The notes under the pieces: generated by a model
Database searches by the model: none
Told to the model about the DNA's origin: nothing
The model's input: only the letters and a program-made list of their open reading frames with translations
Program-made: the position numbers and the translations under genes
In this document: in pieces, positions 10,994 through 33,525 of the stretch
How the letters are laid out: the number at the start of each line of letters is the position of its first letter
Position numbering within the stretch: the first letter of the stretch is position 1
Assembly: GCA_000469685.2 (NCBI GenBank)
Contig: LS997566.1
Coordinates: 45,433,442-45,497,441, forward strand
Origin: Haemonchus contortus
Taxonomy: Eukaryota; Nematoda; Chromadorea; Rhabditida; Trichostrongylidae
Direction of reading: 5' to 3'
Length of the DNA stretch: 64,000 nt

Positions 10994-13900
10994 ATGTCAT
11001 TGAAATATTTGGAGAATGAATTGATTAGACGATCTTTTTATCAATTTTGCAATTCAGCGCGCTGCACTACCACGTCAGCAGGAAGTTCAGGTAAGAACCT
11101 TTTTCTGAAATACTCTTATATTCCTCTCATCATAGTTTATTTCATAAAGCAATTTGATTCGAAGTCTGCGTTCCAGAATGGACAAGTGCAAGTCCCACGA
11201 CCTAGAGCCCTGGTTTTACTTGTAGGTAATGCCGTTCCGAATTTCCGCGAGGAATATGTTCTTCCTCCAAGTTTCGACTACAGAGTATGGTTCCCGATGC
11301 ATATGTCTGTACAAATGAAGAAGATGGAAGGGAAATTGCGTTCTGTGGATCTCATCGTCGAGGTAGTACATAAATACTTTGCTACTTTGTTTCAACGTTC
11401 GATTTTAGTGGGTAGAGTAATGACTGAGAGATGCCGCAACTGCGCTAAACTGGGTATGGGTATGAGTCGGAGCAGCCATTGCAGAGGCCACGTCGAAGGT
11501 TGTGTGTAGACAGCCAGGATTCCTGACTTTTTGTGTTTTTTTTCGTGTCAGGGTCCTTAACCTATTCCTAGTTGAATCTGAAGGTCTTGACGCTGTCAGC
11601 TGAGTTGCTGCGCGAGCAGCGATTTAGTTTCGATGAGAGATTTGCGGTGTTTCCCTTCCTCCCCTATCTTTACGGTTGCTTAGTCTGTACCGCATTTGTT
11701 CGAAAGATTGAACATACTGGCAAGAATATTAGCTGGTCCTGTTAGTTTCAATGATCTAGCTTTTTATTTTAATGCTTTCACAGTTCCGAATGGTTGTTAA
11801 ACTCCGTATTCGCTTCTGAGCTCGAAATGTTTCAATATGAGGGGTTTTTCTTTGTCCTTAATTGTTTTGTGTCAGGTGCACGATGCTCGCATTCCTGCTA
11901 GTGGAAGGAACTCAACGTTCCTGAAGCAGTTGTGCTCAGTTCGACCTCATGTGTTGGTAATGAACAAGATGGATTTAATTAACATGAAAAAGTATAAGTA
12001 AGTCCGATGCCACTTTTCTGTTTTTGTTTGGTTTTCGTTAAGTATAGGTTTTCTCTGAATCATGGGCAGGATACAAAGAGTATCGATCTTGGTTTTCATT
12101 CAGTTGCGCAGTGTAACCCACTGCCTCAACAGTAGGCACCCTGTCGTGTGGTATAGGGTGTCTCAAAAGTTTTGAGAAAATTTATTTGGTTTGTTCAACA
12201 CAAAAATACTACAACAAAAAGGTGAGATCAGTAATCGAAATAGTGGACCTCTTTAACCACGACGTCCCTCCACCGACTGGGCAGAGCACTGATGCCATTC
12301 ATCCAGAAAGAAGAAGGGCGTCGTGAAGCGATCCATTCATCCGCTGCATGTTTGACCTCCTGACGGTTGTTGAATTTTTCCCTTTCGTGTAGGCCTCCAG
12401 GCTTCTGAAAGCATGGTAGTCACAAGGGCTAAGATCAGATGAATATGGAGGGTGGGGTAGCCAGGTGATCCCAAGCCTTTCGAGCTCTTCAGCCGTCGCC
12501 CTGGTATGATGTGGTCGAGCGCTGTCCATCAAAATCAGAAACTTCCCCCTGCATTCGGTGTGAAACCGGGGCTCCAGACACCATCTCCCGCAGCTGCTCG
12601 CAGAATACCCTTACAGTCACAGCAGTACCCTCAGGTAGGATCTCATAGTAGAAACAGCCGGCGGAGCAGAAGAAGAAAAAGATCGTATTCTTTTTGACGT
12701 GTTCCCCACGCTTTGCAACGGCTTCTGGCCTTATGTCGATCGGTAGCCCCTGCAACTTCCTGTGTGGATTTTCATAAGAAATCCACTTCTCATCCTAAGC
12801 GATGATGAAGCTCGTCCAAGCCACCGTTCGCTTGCGGTCGAGTAGCTTCTGACAGACATCGACCCGCACCTGACGCTCGCGTTCAGTCAAGGTGTGGAGG
12901 ATAAGTGCAGGAAGTGCTGCGCGAGAGCGACGTCTGCTTAGGATGTCGTGGATGGTGGAACTTGGAGCAGAAGTCGTCCTCTCCATTTTCCTCAAGCTTT
13001 GAGAAAGATTGCTTTGGATAGAGGCTAAGACAATGTTGGTCTTAGTGGAACGTGGACGTCCGCTCCGTGGCGCTTCGTCGGAGTGAATCTATGCTCTAGA
13101 CCGCGACAGTACCACCTATAGCAGGTGGCGAGAGAAGGTGCAGTACTGCCCATCGATGACTGCAATTCATTCCGGGCTTGAGTGGCTGAGCGGCCAGAAT
13201 CGTACCAATGAAGCAAAAGGCGCCGGTAGTCGTGTCGGCTGGACATAATTCAATTAATGATAACCCACTTCCAAAGATGAAGTGCAATACAGTGCTCTTG
13301 TTATGATAGTCTACCAAGCGTGACCTTTTACTGACCTTTTCTCCGTCGCTCTGCCTCGGCGCTTTCTTGCGCAACATGGTTGCGAAATTCATGACCAAAA
13401 TTTTCTCAAAACTTTTGAGACACCCTAATAGCTGACTGTAAGCAATCGTTCGTGACAGCCACCAGTCATTCCTCGCTCATCTCACTCGGACTTGTTCCGC
13501 TTACAAGCCTGAGGATGTGAAAAATGAGCCCATCCGCACCACAAATTTCGAATAGCAGGCATCGCTTAAACGCGAAATTTTCTGTATGCGTCCCACTAGT
13601 AGGTTTACCATGCTAATTTCTCTTTAAAAATTATGAACTGGGACCAGACGGCGTCTTTTCTCACTGTCCATGTTGTCTGAATTAAACTAATGGTATCGTC
13701 GTCTACGGCGACGATCCCAACAACCATCTCGTCGTCTCACTGTCTGAGACGACTCTCCCTAACTTAGCCCACGCCCCTAAATGATACGGGGTCAAGCGGG
13801 ACCACCAAAAAGCGTGGTCCCCACTTCTTCCTCAAACAACGTCCAGGGCAAGACGTAGGTTGTGTTGTTAGATAAAGTATTATTTCCCATTATTCAACTC

Positions 13901-16651
13901 TTTCATTGCGGTAACGTCCGCACTTATTACATTACTTGTATTTTTACTCCGTTACCATCGGAGTTATAAGAAAACCACTGAACCACCAGCACATTTTTGG
14001 TGCATCGGCCGGGAATCGAACCCGGGCCGCCCGCGTGGCAGGCGAGCATTCTACCACTGAACCACCGATGCACCAAAAATGTGCTGGTGGTTCAGTGGTT
14101 TTCTTATAACTCCGATGGTAACGGAGTAAAAATACAAGTAATGTAATAAGTGCGGACGTTACCGCAATGAAAGAGTTGAATAATGGGAAATAATACTTTA
14201 TCTAACAACACAAGCTACGTCTTGCCCTGGACGTTGTTTGAGGAAGAAGTGGGGACCACGCTTTTTGGTGGTCCCGCTTGACCCCGTATCATTTAGGGGC
14301 GTGGGCTAAGTTAGGGAGAGTCGTCTCAGACAGTGAGACGACGAGATGGTTGTTGGGATCGTCGCCGTAGACGACGATAAATGGTTCCTGATGATTAATT
14401 GTGTAGGTGGTGCAGTACAAGGCCAATAAGTTAAGATAATAATTATATCCACTCATGCTTCCTGCACCTGATTGAGTATAGTATAGTTAGCCAACATCTC
14501 ATCTTTTGTATCGCTAGTAGCACTGCTTTTTTATAGGATCGATTTTGAAATAGCCATCCATTCCGGAAATGAATGATTAAAGTAGTCAGCTAAACTTTTT
14601 TAGACAACCGATTGAAGACTACTACCGTTATGAGCAAGGTATTACTCAAATTATCTGGACAGATTGCAAGAGGCGGCTTGGTCGTGCTTTATCGAATGTA
14701 CAAAAGGCTGTGCTTGACGTTCTCACTCGAGAGCCCAGGTTTAATCGGACAGTTAAGACAGAGTTTCAGGTGTGGTCTCCCTGTAATTATTATTGCCACC
14801 CGTCTTTCTTTCATTGGTGCCGTACCTATAGTTGCACTGTTACTCCTTTTGTAGTCTCACAGGAAGTGAGCTTCAGATTATGGTCGTAGGCATACCCAAC
14901 GTCGGCAAATCCTCTTTAATCAATACATGGCGGTCTCACAATTTGGGCACGAAACAAAGTGCCGTTGCAGAAGGTGAATGAAACAGTTTTTTTTCAAGTT
15001 TCTGTAAATGTTAATCGCAGCTTTATGATCATTTCTTGTTATTTTGGAGACCATTAACACCTCATTAACATTAACATTCAGTAATTCACATTGTTCCCCT
15101 TGAACGCAGGTTCAACTTATGGGTGGTGAAACATTCATTAGCTTCTTCTGTGCAGGCGCTCGACCCGGCGTTACGGTACGCGTTCAAAATCGGGTTCGTG
15201 TTCTGGACAAGCCCCCTATTTACGTTCTTGACACACCTGGAGTCCTTTCACCGTCGACCCGGAATGTACATGAGGTGAGGGTTTTCTATGATGAGCAGTA
15301 CCTCTCTGGCAGCCTGCTCGTTCAGCTCACTGCACTTTGTAACTGCATACTTGTGTTCAGGCGATGAAGCTAGCACTGTGTAATCTGATTTTGGAAAGTG
15401 CCACAAATCCCCGATATGTGGCTGATTATCTTCTCTATTGGTTGAATCGGTATGTCGTTTCCATTGATAGCTTTTTGTGGAAATCAATCAGTTGCAAGGT
15501 TCTTTCCTGGTCGTCTTCACTAATCGAATTGTGACAGGGTAATGAATGTCTGAGCAAACATGATTTCCACCACGTCCTTCAAACAGTGTAGAATTCTCTG
15601 AGAACTGAAGGAAATAGGATATAGTGATGGTAATACCATCAATTGTGTTTCTCATCGTCCATGAATCGCCTTTCTTTTTGTCTCTTACCTCTTTTTTGTC
15701 TCTTTTAATCAGTGTCGACGTTTTCCAGTTTGTCGTTGTTGATTTTTCCGAAGTCAATTTCTGAAGTTATTCTCACCTTCTAATGTGGGTTTTATCATGT
15801 GAATTTTAGGGACAGATAGGGGGTCTGTTCTGAAATCCAGCGGTCCTTGACACACAAGTTGTGTCTTGAATCAGTTCATTAAATTCTGTATTGGAGTTAT
15901 CTTTACTCACATTCAAGTTTTTTTTTTCAGAACTGGTGACTATTCCTATATCAATCATCTTGGGATCTCAGGCGAACCTACGGATGACATTGATAAACTG
16001 CTGCTTCGGATATGTTCTGCAAAGGTTGGCTATCAAATCAGAATATTTATACTAAAATGGTCTTGCTCTTGCTGTTATCTAGCTTATAGGCGATTGCCGA
16101 TAACTGGGAGGATCGTAGAGTTAGTACCGAAGTGCACATATGCCTATACTAAACGCAACAACTCGTGGAGTGGGTGGAAATAACCCCGTGAAAAGCCAAG
16201 AGTAGAGGGCTTCCAGCAGGCAAACAGCAACGAGGGAATACGGTTTTGTAAGCCTCAGTATAGATCTATGCAACACAAGAAAACACTCAAGCTTAACTGC
16301 ACATTTACTGCCAAGAGAGGCCGGAGTCGTGCAACGAGCCGTCACTACTATAAACTCGTCTGCTATCATACTTGTCAGGAATGTAACTTTTTGTGGAGCT
16401 AGTGTCTTTCACTTCTTCCGTATGAATTCATTTTAATATTTGATGACCAGGAAAGTCTGGCATCATTATTAATTCGATAACTTGGATTTATTACGTTCCC
16501 TCAGGACCTACGAACTCGTTGTCTCACCGGACTTACTTACGAAGAACGATGGGATTTTGACCGTGCAATAACGATGTTCATACAATTGTTCCGGAAAGGA
16601 GTTATCAAAGATTGCTGTTTGGATAAAGAATTACTGCGGCCGTACATGTGA
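10994..16651 (+). CDS. mtg-1: Mitochondrial GTPase MTG1 (circularly permuted)
   Basis: MTG1/YlqF-type GTPase acting in assembly of the mitochondrial large ribosomal subunit. Exons: 10994-11090, 11226-11362, 11876-11997, 14604-14769, 14877-14973, 15156-15274, 15361-15449, 15931-16024, 16505-16651 (TGA); about 355 aa, similar to animal MTG1. The permuted motif order is explicit: G4 NKMD in exon 3 precedes G1 GIPNVGKS in exon 5, and G3 DTPG follows in exon 6, with ARPGVT between as the G2 region. The exon 4/5 junction needs the acceptor at GAGCTTCAG (ends 14876) to hold frame; an earlier CACAG would break it. The start at 10994 is the first Met after a possible trans-splice acceptor; an upstream in-frame ATG at 10937 exists. 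The N terminus contains Arg, Ser and Thr but few acidic residues near the end, compatible with mitochondrial import. Intron 3 (11998-14603) has been inflated by a mariner element and a tRNA palindrome. Confidence 0.93.
12156..13425 (-). mobile_element. mariner (D34D) DNA transposon, degenerate
   Basis: A 1270 bp element in MTG1 intron 3, bounded by about 28 bp terminal inverted repeats (GGGTGTCTCAAAAGTTTTGA at the left, its complement at the right) and by TA target-site duplications at 12154-12155 and 13426-13427. Length, ends, TA duplication and an antisense transposase fix it as Tc1/mariner, mariner branch. The inner TIR contains a small perfect palindrome (CTCAAAAGTTTTGAG). Confidence 0.93.
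12253..13246 (-). pseudogene. mariner transposase remnant
   Basis: Minus-strand coding is spread over several frames: an N-terminal helix-turn-helix region with SATQARNEL and CYRWY at 13246 downwards, a middle part with HTLTERERQVRVDVCQKLL, the first catalytic block DEKWISYENPHRK, the second block with DSARPHHT, and the third with YSSDLSPCDYHAF. The last two aspartates are separated by 34 residues, the mariner D34D spacing. A TAG stop falls directly before the first catalytic DEKW and frameshifts separate the segments, so no intact transposase is encoded. Confidence 0.88.
13694..14379. repeat. 686 bp near-perfect palindrome centred on tRNA-Gly
   Basis: The left arm (from TATCGTCGTCTACGGCGACG at 13694) is repeated almost base for base as the inverse complement in the right arm ending at 14379, with only scattered mismatches such as near 13860 against 14213. 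The ends begin TCGTCGTCTACGGCGACGA and are flanked by TA on both sides, as expected for a Tc1/mariner-type foldback or MITE. The centre of symmetry is 14036-14037, the middle of the tRNA gene, whose acceptor stem continues the palindrome. Confidence 0.93.
14001..14071 (-). tRNA. tRNA-Gly (GCC anticodon)
   Basis: 71 nt, read on the minus strand from 14071. Acceptor arms GCATCGG and CCGATGC pair fully with discriminator A at 14001. The D arm (GGTTCAGTGGTAGAATG) carries the A box, the anticodon loop reads CTGCCAC with anticodon GCC, and the T arm is CCCGGGTTCGATTCCCGG, a good B box. All stems are intact, so it looks functional. It sits antisense inside MTG1 intron 3 and forms the exact centre of the palindrome at 13694-14379. 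Confidence 0.95.
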
Positions 16652-31600: not shown

Positions 31601-33525
31601 ACTATTTTTCAACTTTTAGCGTCGTGGTCAGCACCGTCCAAAGGAAATCTCGTCAAAGAAACCTGTTTCAGTCTTTCGGCCTTTGTATCAGGACATGAAA
31701 GGAAAGAAGTGTGTGTCACTTGACCCTTTCGATTTACTCCTTTCTTGGGCTCGATTCCTCAGAATCTCACACGAAGAAGGTTTTCCTCGCGATGTTTAGG
31801 ATGCTTTCTAATTCTTTCACCTCTCACTATAGATTGAAATGGCGAATACAGCGGCTGCGCTACTTGTTCGTGGCTTATGCTGTAATCTTGATCTTGTAGG
31901 AGAAGGGACCCACGATTTGACAGTCGAGCAGGCATGTTCAAGGAGAGGTGTTTTGAAGACAATTACAGTTTCCTGAATGATCTGAGAAGGCAAGAGAGAG
32001 AGGTGAGTGACTCCACTTAATTTTTATTAGTTTGCTTTGTGACTGTGTCCTTTGTTTTACCAAAGATTTAACAAACGGGATTTCTAAAGCAAACGAAAAT
32101 GTGTTTGTAACTTCACCACGGTTTGATAATCTTCTGTTAATGACAACTTCGATTTGTGGATTAAGTTGGAGTTGTTTGCCTGTTCTTGTACTTCAAAAGT
32201 TTCATATTATTATTAAACCTCTAAACCTCTTCCTTCCTTTTTTGATTCGAGTGAAGGAGTAATGGCTGCCTTGAAAGCTATCAAAACTAAATACAAAGTT
32301 CGATACTAACTTTTGTGAAGGGTTCTCTACGAATTGTATTGTTGTAGAGACCTGGCAACTGATCGGTTTTATTGAAATCGATGATAGTATGATTTTATGA
32401 GTATTTTAGGAATTGGCTAAACAAGCGGCTGAGTGTGATGAACAAGGAGACACGGAAATGGCGGAGAAGATTCGTGAGGTATTTGTTCATCCATTTGGCG
32501 GAGATAGTATAATGACTAGGGGAAGTATAATGACTAGGGGAAGACTTGATGTTTGATTAACTGCTGTTATTTCGCCGCAGTACGCGATCCGAAAGCCTCA
32601 CAAGGTTGGCGATTTGTGGACAAAACTTCAGCCTCGGACGGGACTTGAACCCGTACTTGTCCTTTCCGGGGACCGTGCTCTTATCCCTTACACTACCGAG
32701 GCCCCGCTTGCCCTCGCCTTCTTAATGGCTTATATGCCATAGCTTATATCTATATCTGATATCGGCCGACCGGCTCAACACGTTGTACGTGTGAGTGCTG
32801 ATAAGCTATGGCATATAAGCCATTAAGAAGGCGAGGGCAAGCGGGGCCTCGGTAGTGTAAGGGATAAGAGCACGGTCCCCGGAAAGGACAAGTACGGGTT
32901 CAAGTCCCGTCCGAGGCTGAAGTTTTGTCCACAAATCGCCAACCTTGTGAGACTAGGGGAAGAGGCCAACTCTTTTTGCTCTTCCGTTTGCCCTTGCAAA
33001 TTGGGTCAGCGGTAACGCTTAAGTTGAAGGTACGAGGCAGGAATAGCTTTAGGAGTTGCTAAGTCACATGACAACGATTTCCTTATTTTGAAGATTATCA
33101 TTTAATTTAAAACATTTTATGGATTTTTTTTGATTAACTAGACGTAGCGACAACCTAAAAGACCAAAACTTAGGCTATTCGTCGAATGGATAATCGTGAA
33201 CGGACAAAGGCCGAACGAAAGTTGAAAGAGGAAACGTTCAAGGAGCTGCGTCAGGAGAACATTGAACGTATGATGCGAGGAGAACGACCTGTTTTCAAGA
33301 CGAAAGGTAGTTTACTGGCTATGCTTGCCGTAAATCTCCGAGCAGTCAAAACTTATTGATATTGTTTCAGCAAAGGTTCGATTGATGCAAATGGAAAAGA
33401 AGTTTGCTCAACTGAAGAAGGATAACAAGCTTGATAATTACATGAAGAGAAAAGCGAAGAAAGAAGCTCGTAAGGAAGCCAAAAGGAAGCCGGATTTCGA
33501 GCACAAATACGGATATCAGGAGTAA
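28603..33525 (+). CDS. rrp-36: RRP36-type nucleolar rRNA processing protein
   Basis: RRP36 is a nucleolar component needed for early cleavages of pre-rRNA towards 18S rRNA. Exons: 28603-28683, 29486-29545, 29654-29736, 29836-30022, 30396-30524, 30602-30754, 31098-31257, 31411-31559, 31620-31708, 31900-32002, 32410-32478, 33174-33306, 33371-33525 (TAA); about 516 aa with continuous phase. The C-terminal half carries the family signature KRRDPRFDSRAG followed by the charged helical region (FLNDLRRQERE, KLKEETFKELRQEN, KRKAKKEARKEAKRK). The N-terminal half of about 300 residues is lysine-rich, then acidic, with poly-Glu/Asp blocks, and makes the protein roughly twice the usual RRP36 size; I infer one gene because every junction keeps frame. 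Introns after 28683 and 30524 use GC donors. The start follows a possible SL acceptor (TTGTAG) directly. The intron at 32479-33173 holds a tRNA-like foldback element. Confidence 0.85.
32630..32702 (-). tRNA. tRNA-like sequence, left arm (probable pseudo-tRNA)
   Basis: Mirror copy of 32846-32918 on the minus strand. The seven-base-pair acceptor GCCTCGG/CCGAGGC, a T arm ACGGGTTCAAGTCCCGT and a D-arm-like segment are present. The anticodon stem GTCC/GGAC closes a CCGGAAA loop that would give anticodon GGA, but position 33 is C not U and there is no long variable arm as tRNA-Ser requires. Function doubtful. Confidence 0.5.
32846..32918 (+). tRNA. tRNA-like sequence, right arm (probable pseudo-tRNA)
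   Basis: Same 73 nt sequence as the left arm, plus strand: GCCTCGG acceptor, weak D stem, four-pair anticodon stem with nominal anticodon GGA, a good TTCAAGT T loop and discriminator T. Internal A- and B-box-like segments could recruit RNA polymerase III even if the product is not a working tRNA. Confidence 0.5.

Follow-up and report, generated by a model that had tools for sequence, protein, structure and literature searches.

An LTR-tRNA palindrome in Haemonchus contortus as a probable product of aberrant reverse transcription

The palindrome at positions 13694-14379 of the window (the whole stretch of 64,000 nucleotides of Haemonchus contortus DNA that was analysed, on contig C5 of a searched genome of 7 contigs and 283,439,308 bases) very probably arose when reverse transcription of a BEL/Pao-type LTR retrotransposon went astray and the product was integrated in the usual way. 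It looks like a lasting record of a copying mistake, in which the whole primer tRNA was read through, the strand folded back and the product was inserted.

Structure of the palindrome and identity of its arms

The palindrome in the window is real. The repeat search placed two arms of 315 nt at 13694-14008 and 14065-14379, with 56 nt between them, and a script comparison found a single mismatch between the arms, G versus C at 13859. The sequence-only reading had described near-identical arms and a dyad axis inside a tRNA-Gly(GCC) gene, and both descriptions held, with the tRNA at the centre on the minus strand (13998-14071). When folded as single-stranded DNA, the central 130 nt reached -56.9 kcal/mol (z -12.04), and none of 200 shuffles was as good.

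The structure opens with one copy of the target-site duplication AATGG (13689-13693), whose length of 5 bp is shared by the duplications at 10 other family loci; next comes the 300-bp left LTR, TATCGT...AGCACA (13694-13993, plus strand), whose ends were set by paired LTRs. A TTTT spacer (13994-13997, plus strand) leads from the LTR to the primer-binding site of the element, with which the plus-strand complement of the central tRNA begins; this tRNA is complete and has an encoded CCA at 13998-14000. The left arm ends with the acceptor-stem strand GCATCGG (14002-14008, plus strand), and the other stem strand, CCGATGC (14065-14071, plus strand), would be the 3' end that folded back and primed. 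The fold-back junction ACCA + AAAA (14072-14079, plus strand), which is the reverse complement of TTTT-TGGT, is followed by the right LTR, an inverted copy with one mismatch in 300 (14080-14379, minus strand), and by the second copy of AATGG (14380-14384). In each arm, 300 nt of LTR, 4 of TTTT, 4 of TGGT (the complement of CCA plus the discriminator base) and 7 of acceptor strand make up the observed 315 nt, and the predicted centre (74-4-14) equals the observed 56 nt.

The one-arm genome search proposed by the sequence-only reading gave many copies among the matches listed (40 of 310 candidates scored, so that the counts are lower bounds), and these copies are LTRs, several of them in direct pairs about 4.3 kb apart, typically with the match ending at query position 300 in one member and at 307 in the other. 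An adjacent inverted pair, however, was present only at the window among 90 matches to the U5-end/PBS pattern (at most 2 mismatches), and a perfect palindrome of the window LTR was found once among these 90 and the arm matches listed. The paired LTRs fix the LTR of the family at 300 bp, TATCGT...AGCACA. After the 5' LTR copy comes TTTT and then TGGTGCATCGGC or a near variant, a primer-binding site four bases past the LTR that is complementary to the 3' end of tRNA-Gly; TTGCCGGCGGAG, the likely polypurine tract, lies directly before the 3' LTR copy. Full-length copies start with TATCGT; the outer TA, which had been taken for a target duplication, is thus the LTR's own end, and the duplicated target is AATGG. 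A 5-bp duplication was found at 11 of the 13 family loci printed, including the window and one solo LTR. The exceptions were L076, with one LTR in the stretch, and L079 (C6:18751000-18760000), a large inverted duplication of LTR-bearing sequence plus flank with no 5-bp duplication. At C6:26543671-26543851 (L027-L029), just inside a 5' LTR, the U5-end/PBS region is repeated in tandem in 54-bp units.

The ORFs of two relatives (L073 and L083) matched DUF1759, which we take to be a mark of Pao elements, and gave protease matches below the cut-off, and in a third relative (L074), the region 691-2988, which encodes DUF5641 together with a Phlebovirus_G2-like domain, follows an 18-nt PBS copy (L018); scanning these three ORFs revealed neither RT nor integrase. 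The arm family would fit a tRNA-Gly-primed, BEL/Pao-type LTR retrotransposon. The window insertion is not a standard provirus of direct LTR, internal region and LTR, as its LTRs are inverted around the tRNA. The two arms differ at 1 of 300 LTR positions, whereas the nearest of 17 other aligned LTRs differs from them at 6 of 300 and by a gap; thus, the arms came from one copying event. At 13859 the right arm carries a base absent from the 17 other LTRs.

Elsewhere in the window, a second near-perfect inverted repeat has 154-nt arms at 32594-32747 and 32801-32954, 53 nt apart, and each arm contains one tRNA-Ser(GGA)-like gene of 75 nt; because neither gene is followed by CCA, this repeat looks like a genomic inverted duplication. 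The minus strand at 12302-13249 holds a broken mariner with HTH_48, Transposase_1 and a below-cut-off DDE_3 in separate frames, and its fourth frame gave no domain match. Two exon-like ORFs carry the motifs NKMD (11801-12001) and DTPG (15104-15367). They did not confirm an MTG1 identity, as neither had a Pfam match at E 0.01; the G4-before-G3 order of the motifs fits a permuted GTPase such as MTG1.

The central tRNA and other copies with an encoded CCA

ARAGORN identified a tRNA-Gly(GCC) of 71 nt plus CCA on the minus strand at 13998-14071, and Rfam matched tRNA at 14001-14071 with 66.7 bits; the cloverleaf is intact. Its 71 nt are the same as those of 93 perfect genomic tRNA-Gly copies, but its CCA is encoded, unlike in an ordinary gene; nuclear tRNA genes of eukaryotes are not known to encode CCA. 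The tRNA-Gly search listed 130 matches, of which 93 were perfect (71/71), 24 carried CCA and 13 were partial or variant, and with 40 of 69 candidates scored, the numbers 130, 93 and 24 are lower bounds. The match stops before CCA in all of the at least 93 perfect copies, 85 of which lie in three clusters on C3. Tandem arrays of tRNA-Gly(GCC) with a period of about 162 bp were observed at C3:29321434-29329118 (48 perfect copies) and C3:28521151-28526891 (32 perfect copies). In control searches, 14 of 16 tRNA-Asp rows (at least 85% identity) and 39 of 40 tRNA-Glu rows reached the last gene base, and no row of either tRNA entered CCA, the single CCA-reaching row of the tRNA-Asp search being the tRNA-Gly copy of L045.

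In every one of the 24 CCA copies, TGG directly adjoins an LTR-like U5 end on the CCA side, in about 15 sequence groups as judged by eye, so that tRNA copies are also carried by elements with other LTRs, in line with the earlier idea of tRNA-carrying mobile elements. Several CCA copies have a flank in common (L040/L041/L092, L044/L089, L045/L086, L046-L048/L093 and L095/L096), L043 has a paired LTR, and the L090 family includes 16 other elements with the same two segments. All eight flanks covered by recurrence searches (a set that excludes L042, L095/L096 and L097) had further matches in the genome, among them those of L085, L088, L087, L091 and L094, and that of L098 had a single one, in part. 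A pattern search over 28 nt with at most 2 mismatches gave 42 matches, 36 of them of the CCA type, and the reversed pattern gave none; flanks were read for 22 of the 36.

According to the accessible part of PMC13191261, plus-strand synthesis normally halts at m1A58, once 18 nt have been copied. The tRNA copy of L018 has exactly 18 nt, the canonical stop, and 51 exact 18-nt matches were found in the genome. Among 21 aligned read-through copies, 10 extend as far as tRNA nt 1 and 6 stop at nt 5 (L085, L086, L090, L091, L095 and L096). Over 28 positions of 31 CCA-type loci (the 36 rows minus 5 taken as neighbour duplicates), there are 27 substitutions, and 7 of them, 5 to A and 2 to C, fall at position 19, the complement of A58 (P=3.5e-5); the next-highest positions have 3 each, and a uniform distribution would give about 1. 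When all 36 CCA-type rows were counted, 9 of 32 substitutions were at the A58 complement (P=1.3e-6). Of the seven loci changed at position 19, the three that were read (L090, L092 and L097) have different LTR flanks, and L098 is a fourth case outside the 36-row set. Reverse transcriptases misinsert opposite methylated A58, and the excess at the A58 complement is what mis-copying across methylated A58 would leave. The window copy has the unchanged base at A58 and hence no m1A58 scar. Because CCA is encoded at LTR ends and substitutions occur at the A58 complement, mature tRNA primers were copied end to end, and the central tRNA, judging from its sequence, is such a copy of the mature primer, CCA included. 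An encoded CCA may hinder processing by tRNase Z.

Read-through copies were also observed in other arrangements. L020, a second product of the same type as the window palindrome, consists of a GTCAT duplication, a full LTR, TTTT, TGGT, sense tRNA nt 1-66, LTR positions 64-300 and the duplication again. L099 has the same fold-back junction (with TGTT for TGGT), a partly deleted LTR like that of L045/L086 and sense tRNA nt 1-65, with no target-site duplication visible. Both loci are broken 2-3 nt into the acceptor stem, at the start of the hairpin stem, and the other side beyond this point is lost; we infer that these breaks reflect a hairpin opened there. At L045 (duplication GAACA) and at L044/L071 (duplication CCGTG), the LTRs enclose a full tRNA copy that is fused to other sequence. 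L046-L048 are three tandem 840-bp units, and since L093, on another chromosome, shares their LTR end, tRNA and following sequence, the element seems to have moved with its tRNA. The L090 locus, read on one side, is a composite within a larger element, in which an LTR end, a tRNA copy and a segment inverted relative to 16 of 16 other family elements are followed by the LTR end and tRNA start once more, in facing orientation; this is the second facing pair among the 36 CCA-type matches (C2:19749364 and C2:19749629). A target-site duplication around the LTR-tRNA unit was absent at L040 and L041, and that of L070 matched at only 4 of 5 bases.

Proposed mechanism and alternative explanations

We propose that tRNA-Gly(GCC) would prime minus-strand DNA at TGGTGCATCGGC, as the primer-binding site suggests, and that plus-strand strong-stop DNA would then copy the LTR and TTTT, pass m1A58 and copy the whole mature tRNA with CCA; the tRNA copy is present in the sequence, and similar read-through is found at other loci. 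Because the acceptor stem is an inverted repeat, CCGATGC at the 3' end can base-pair with GCATCGG within the same tRNA copy. By pairing with its own strand or with a sister strand, this end would prime a copy of the LTR, and extension from the folded-back stem would copy TGGT, TTTT and the LTR. The junction is observed, the act of priming would account for it, and the outcome is two 315-nt arms and a tRNA-shaped centre. Folded as DNA, the pre-extension strand had a closed stem that was not unusually stable (z -1.65, with 9 of 200 shuffles as good), and with five more bases z was -4.43. Finally, integrase would insert a double-stranded form bounded by U3 ends on both sides, with a 5-bp duplication, and the duplication is found in the window. 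Since only one end of a hairpin is double-stranded, this step requires the assumption of a two-ended form; one possibility is that two strands primed on each other, which would give a duplex with a central bubble.

A variant compatible with this explanation holds that the second LTR arose when the strand primed on a plus-sense sister in the particle, giving a dimer, and not by intramolecular snap-back; within the main explanation, we regard it as possible, if on the doubtful side. Its two U3 ends would arise directly, as integration with a duplication needs, and the segment of L090 that is inverted relative to 16 of 16 relatives suggests, from a composite and partly read locus, that plus-strand ends can join plus-sense templates. 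Against this variant, the stem used at the junction is the acceptor stem of the copied tRNA, and an intramolecular fold closes it too; both routes would produce identical sequence. A further reading places the second arm later, with an LTR-tRNA unit inserted first and the arm added when a replication fork switched template. A fork could be stalled by the tRNA hairpin, and L079 is a larger inverted duplication that involves the arm family; however, the LTR end is exactly where the right arm stops, and the 5 bp duplicated from the left flank come next, both of which fork switching would give only by chance (about 1 in 1000 for the duplication alone), and we consider this reading improbable. The sequence-only suggestion that a fork copied the flanks of a resident tRNA gene conflicts with the encoded CCA, the primer-binding junction, the LTR ends and the duplication outside the arms. 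Inverted artefacts occur in long-read libraries, and the palindrome could in principle have been assembled from a fold-back read; such an artefact would mirror whatever flank lay there instead of stopping at both LTR ends beside a 5-bp duplication, and the arms differ at 13859 by a right-arm base absent from the 17 other LTRs, which makes this origin very unlikely.

That two independent LTR insertions flank a resident tRNA-Gly gene is scarcely credible. Some LTR elements insert beside tRNA genes, as Ty3 does, but the arms are only 1 in 300 apart, against at least 6 for any of the 17 other LTRs, at least 93 perfect tRNA-Gly copies have no CCA, and the TTTT-TGGT primer-binding junction is present on both sides. 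The sequence-only reading had offered, as one of two possibilities, a TA-inserting MITE that carries the tRNA. A mobile-element insertion that brought in a complete tRNA stands from this proposal, whereas the element is not a Tc1/mariner MITE, a class refuted by the AATGG duplication and the LTR pairs. A foldback element or MITE that inserts at TA and has captured a tRNA gene would agree with the TA...TA ends and the broken mariner nearby; it is extremely unlikely, as the arms belong, as LTRs, to elements with putative gag-type and protease domains and the duplication is AATGG, not TA.

With aberrant reverse transcription as the preferred origin of the window palindrome, we lean slightly towards a general view, in which acceptor-stem fold-back of read-through plus strands recurs in the tRNA-Gly-primed LTR elements of this worm and seeds CCA-bearing, possibly transcribable tRNA genes, some of which moved with their element, and in which the A58 changes record mis-copying of m1A58. 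If this is true, primer modification and reverse-transcriptase errors have left a legible record in the genome, and integrated failed intermediates would show, from the genome alone, how frequently m1A58 is passed, which base is inserted there and what becomes of an over-extended plus strand. The integrated copies would also be a source of dispersed tRNA-like genes with an encoded CCA, and tRNA gene counts may include them unless they are filtered.

Comparison with known systems

BEL/Pao elements (Belpaoviridae) have LTRs of 0.2-1.2 kb, a primer-binding site to tRNA-Gly or tRNA-Arg and a polypurine tract (PMC8742986). The family described here is alike in its LTR size range, its tRNA-Gly primer-binding site and its likely polypurine tract, with DUF1759 and weak protease matches in relatives. 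Unlike these elements, the window insertion lacks an internal region and carries its LTRs in inverted orientation around a tRNA; the usual primer-binding match of the family is about 12 nt, against 18.

For Ty1 and Ty3, the accessible part of PMC5371799 describes element RNA outside the primer-binding site that pairs with the primer tRNA in bipartite or extended sites. The window is alike in that the U5 stretch ACCACTGAACCACC (13974-13987, plus strand) is complementary to nt 6-19 of tRNA-Gly, a possible second primer contact (score 14, p 0.0033, the floor of 300 shuffles); it differs from what that part reports in that the pairing here is computed complementarity alone. Beyond the primer-binding site, 14 of 20 U5 sequences, some of them related, were more complementary to the tRNA than dinucleotide shuffles (p<0.05), and the remaining 6 of 20 were not significant against such shuffles. 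As an alternative to an extended primer contact, the complementarity could be an old copied tRNA.

TAR-dependent self-priming of HIV-1 minus-strand strong-stop DNA was reportedly described by Guo et al. in 1997. Both there and here, strong-stop DNA would prime on itself; the minus strand and TAR are involved there, the plus strand and a copied acceptor stem, followed by integration, here. We found no report of an integrated full-tRNA read-through or an LTR-tRNA palindrome in the accessible parts of the open-access literature, including PMC13191261, PMC7472051, PMC6934838 and PMC10986323. In HIV-1, the accessible part of PMC13191261 describes P1, a plus-strand strong-stop DNA with copying of the whole tRNA on unmodified tRNA, and extension beyond A58 in methyltransferase-mutant cells, and P1 is not among the active templates listed there. 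As far as that part of the source goes, the worm copies are alike in that the reverse transcriptase would copy the whole tRNA past the m1A58 stop, and unlike in that the worm products are integrated in the genome, some of them with a base change at A58.
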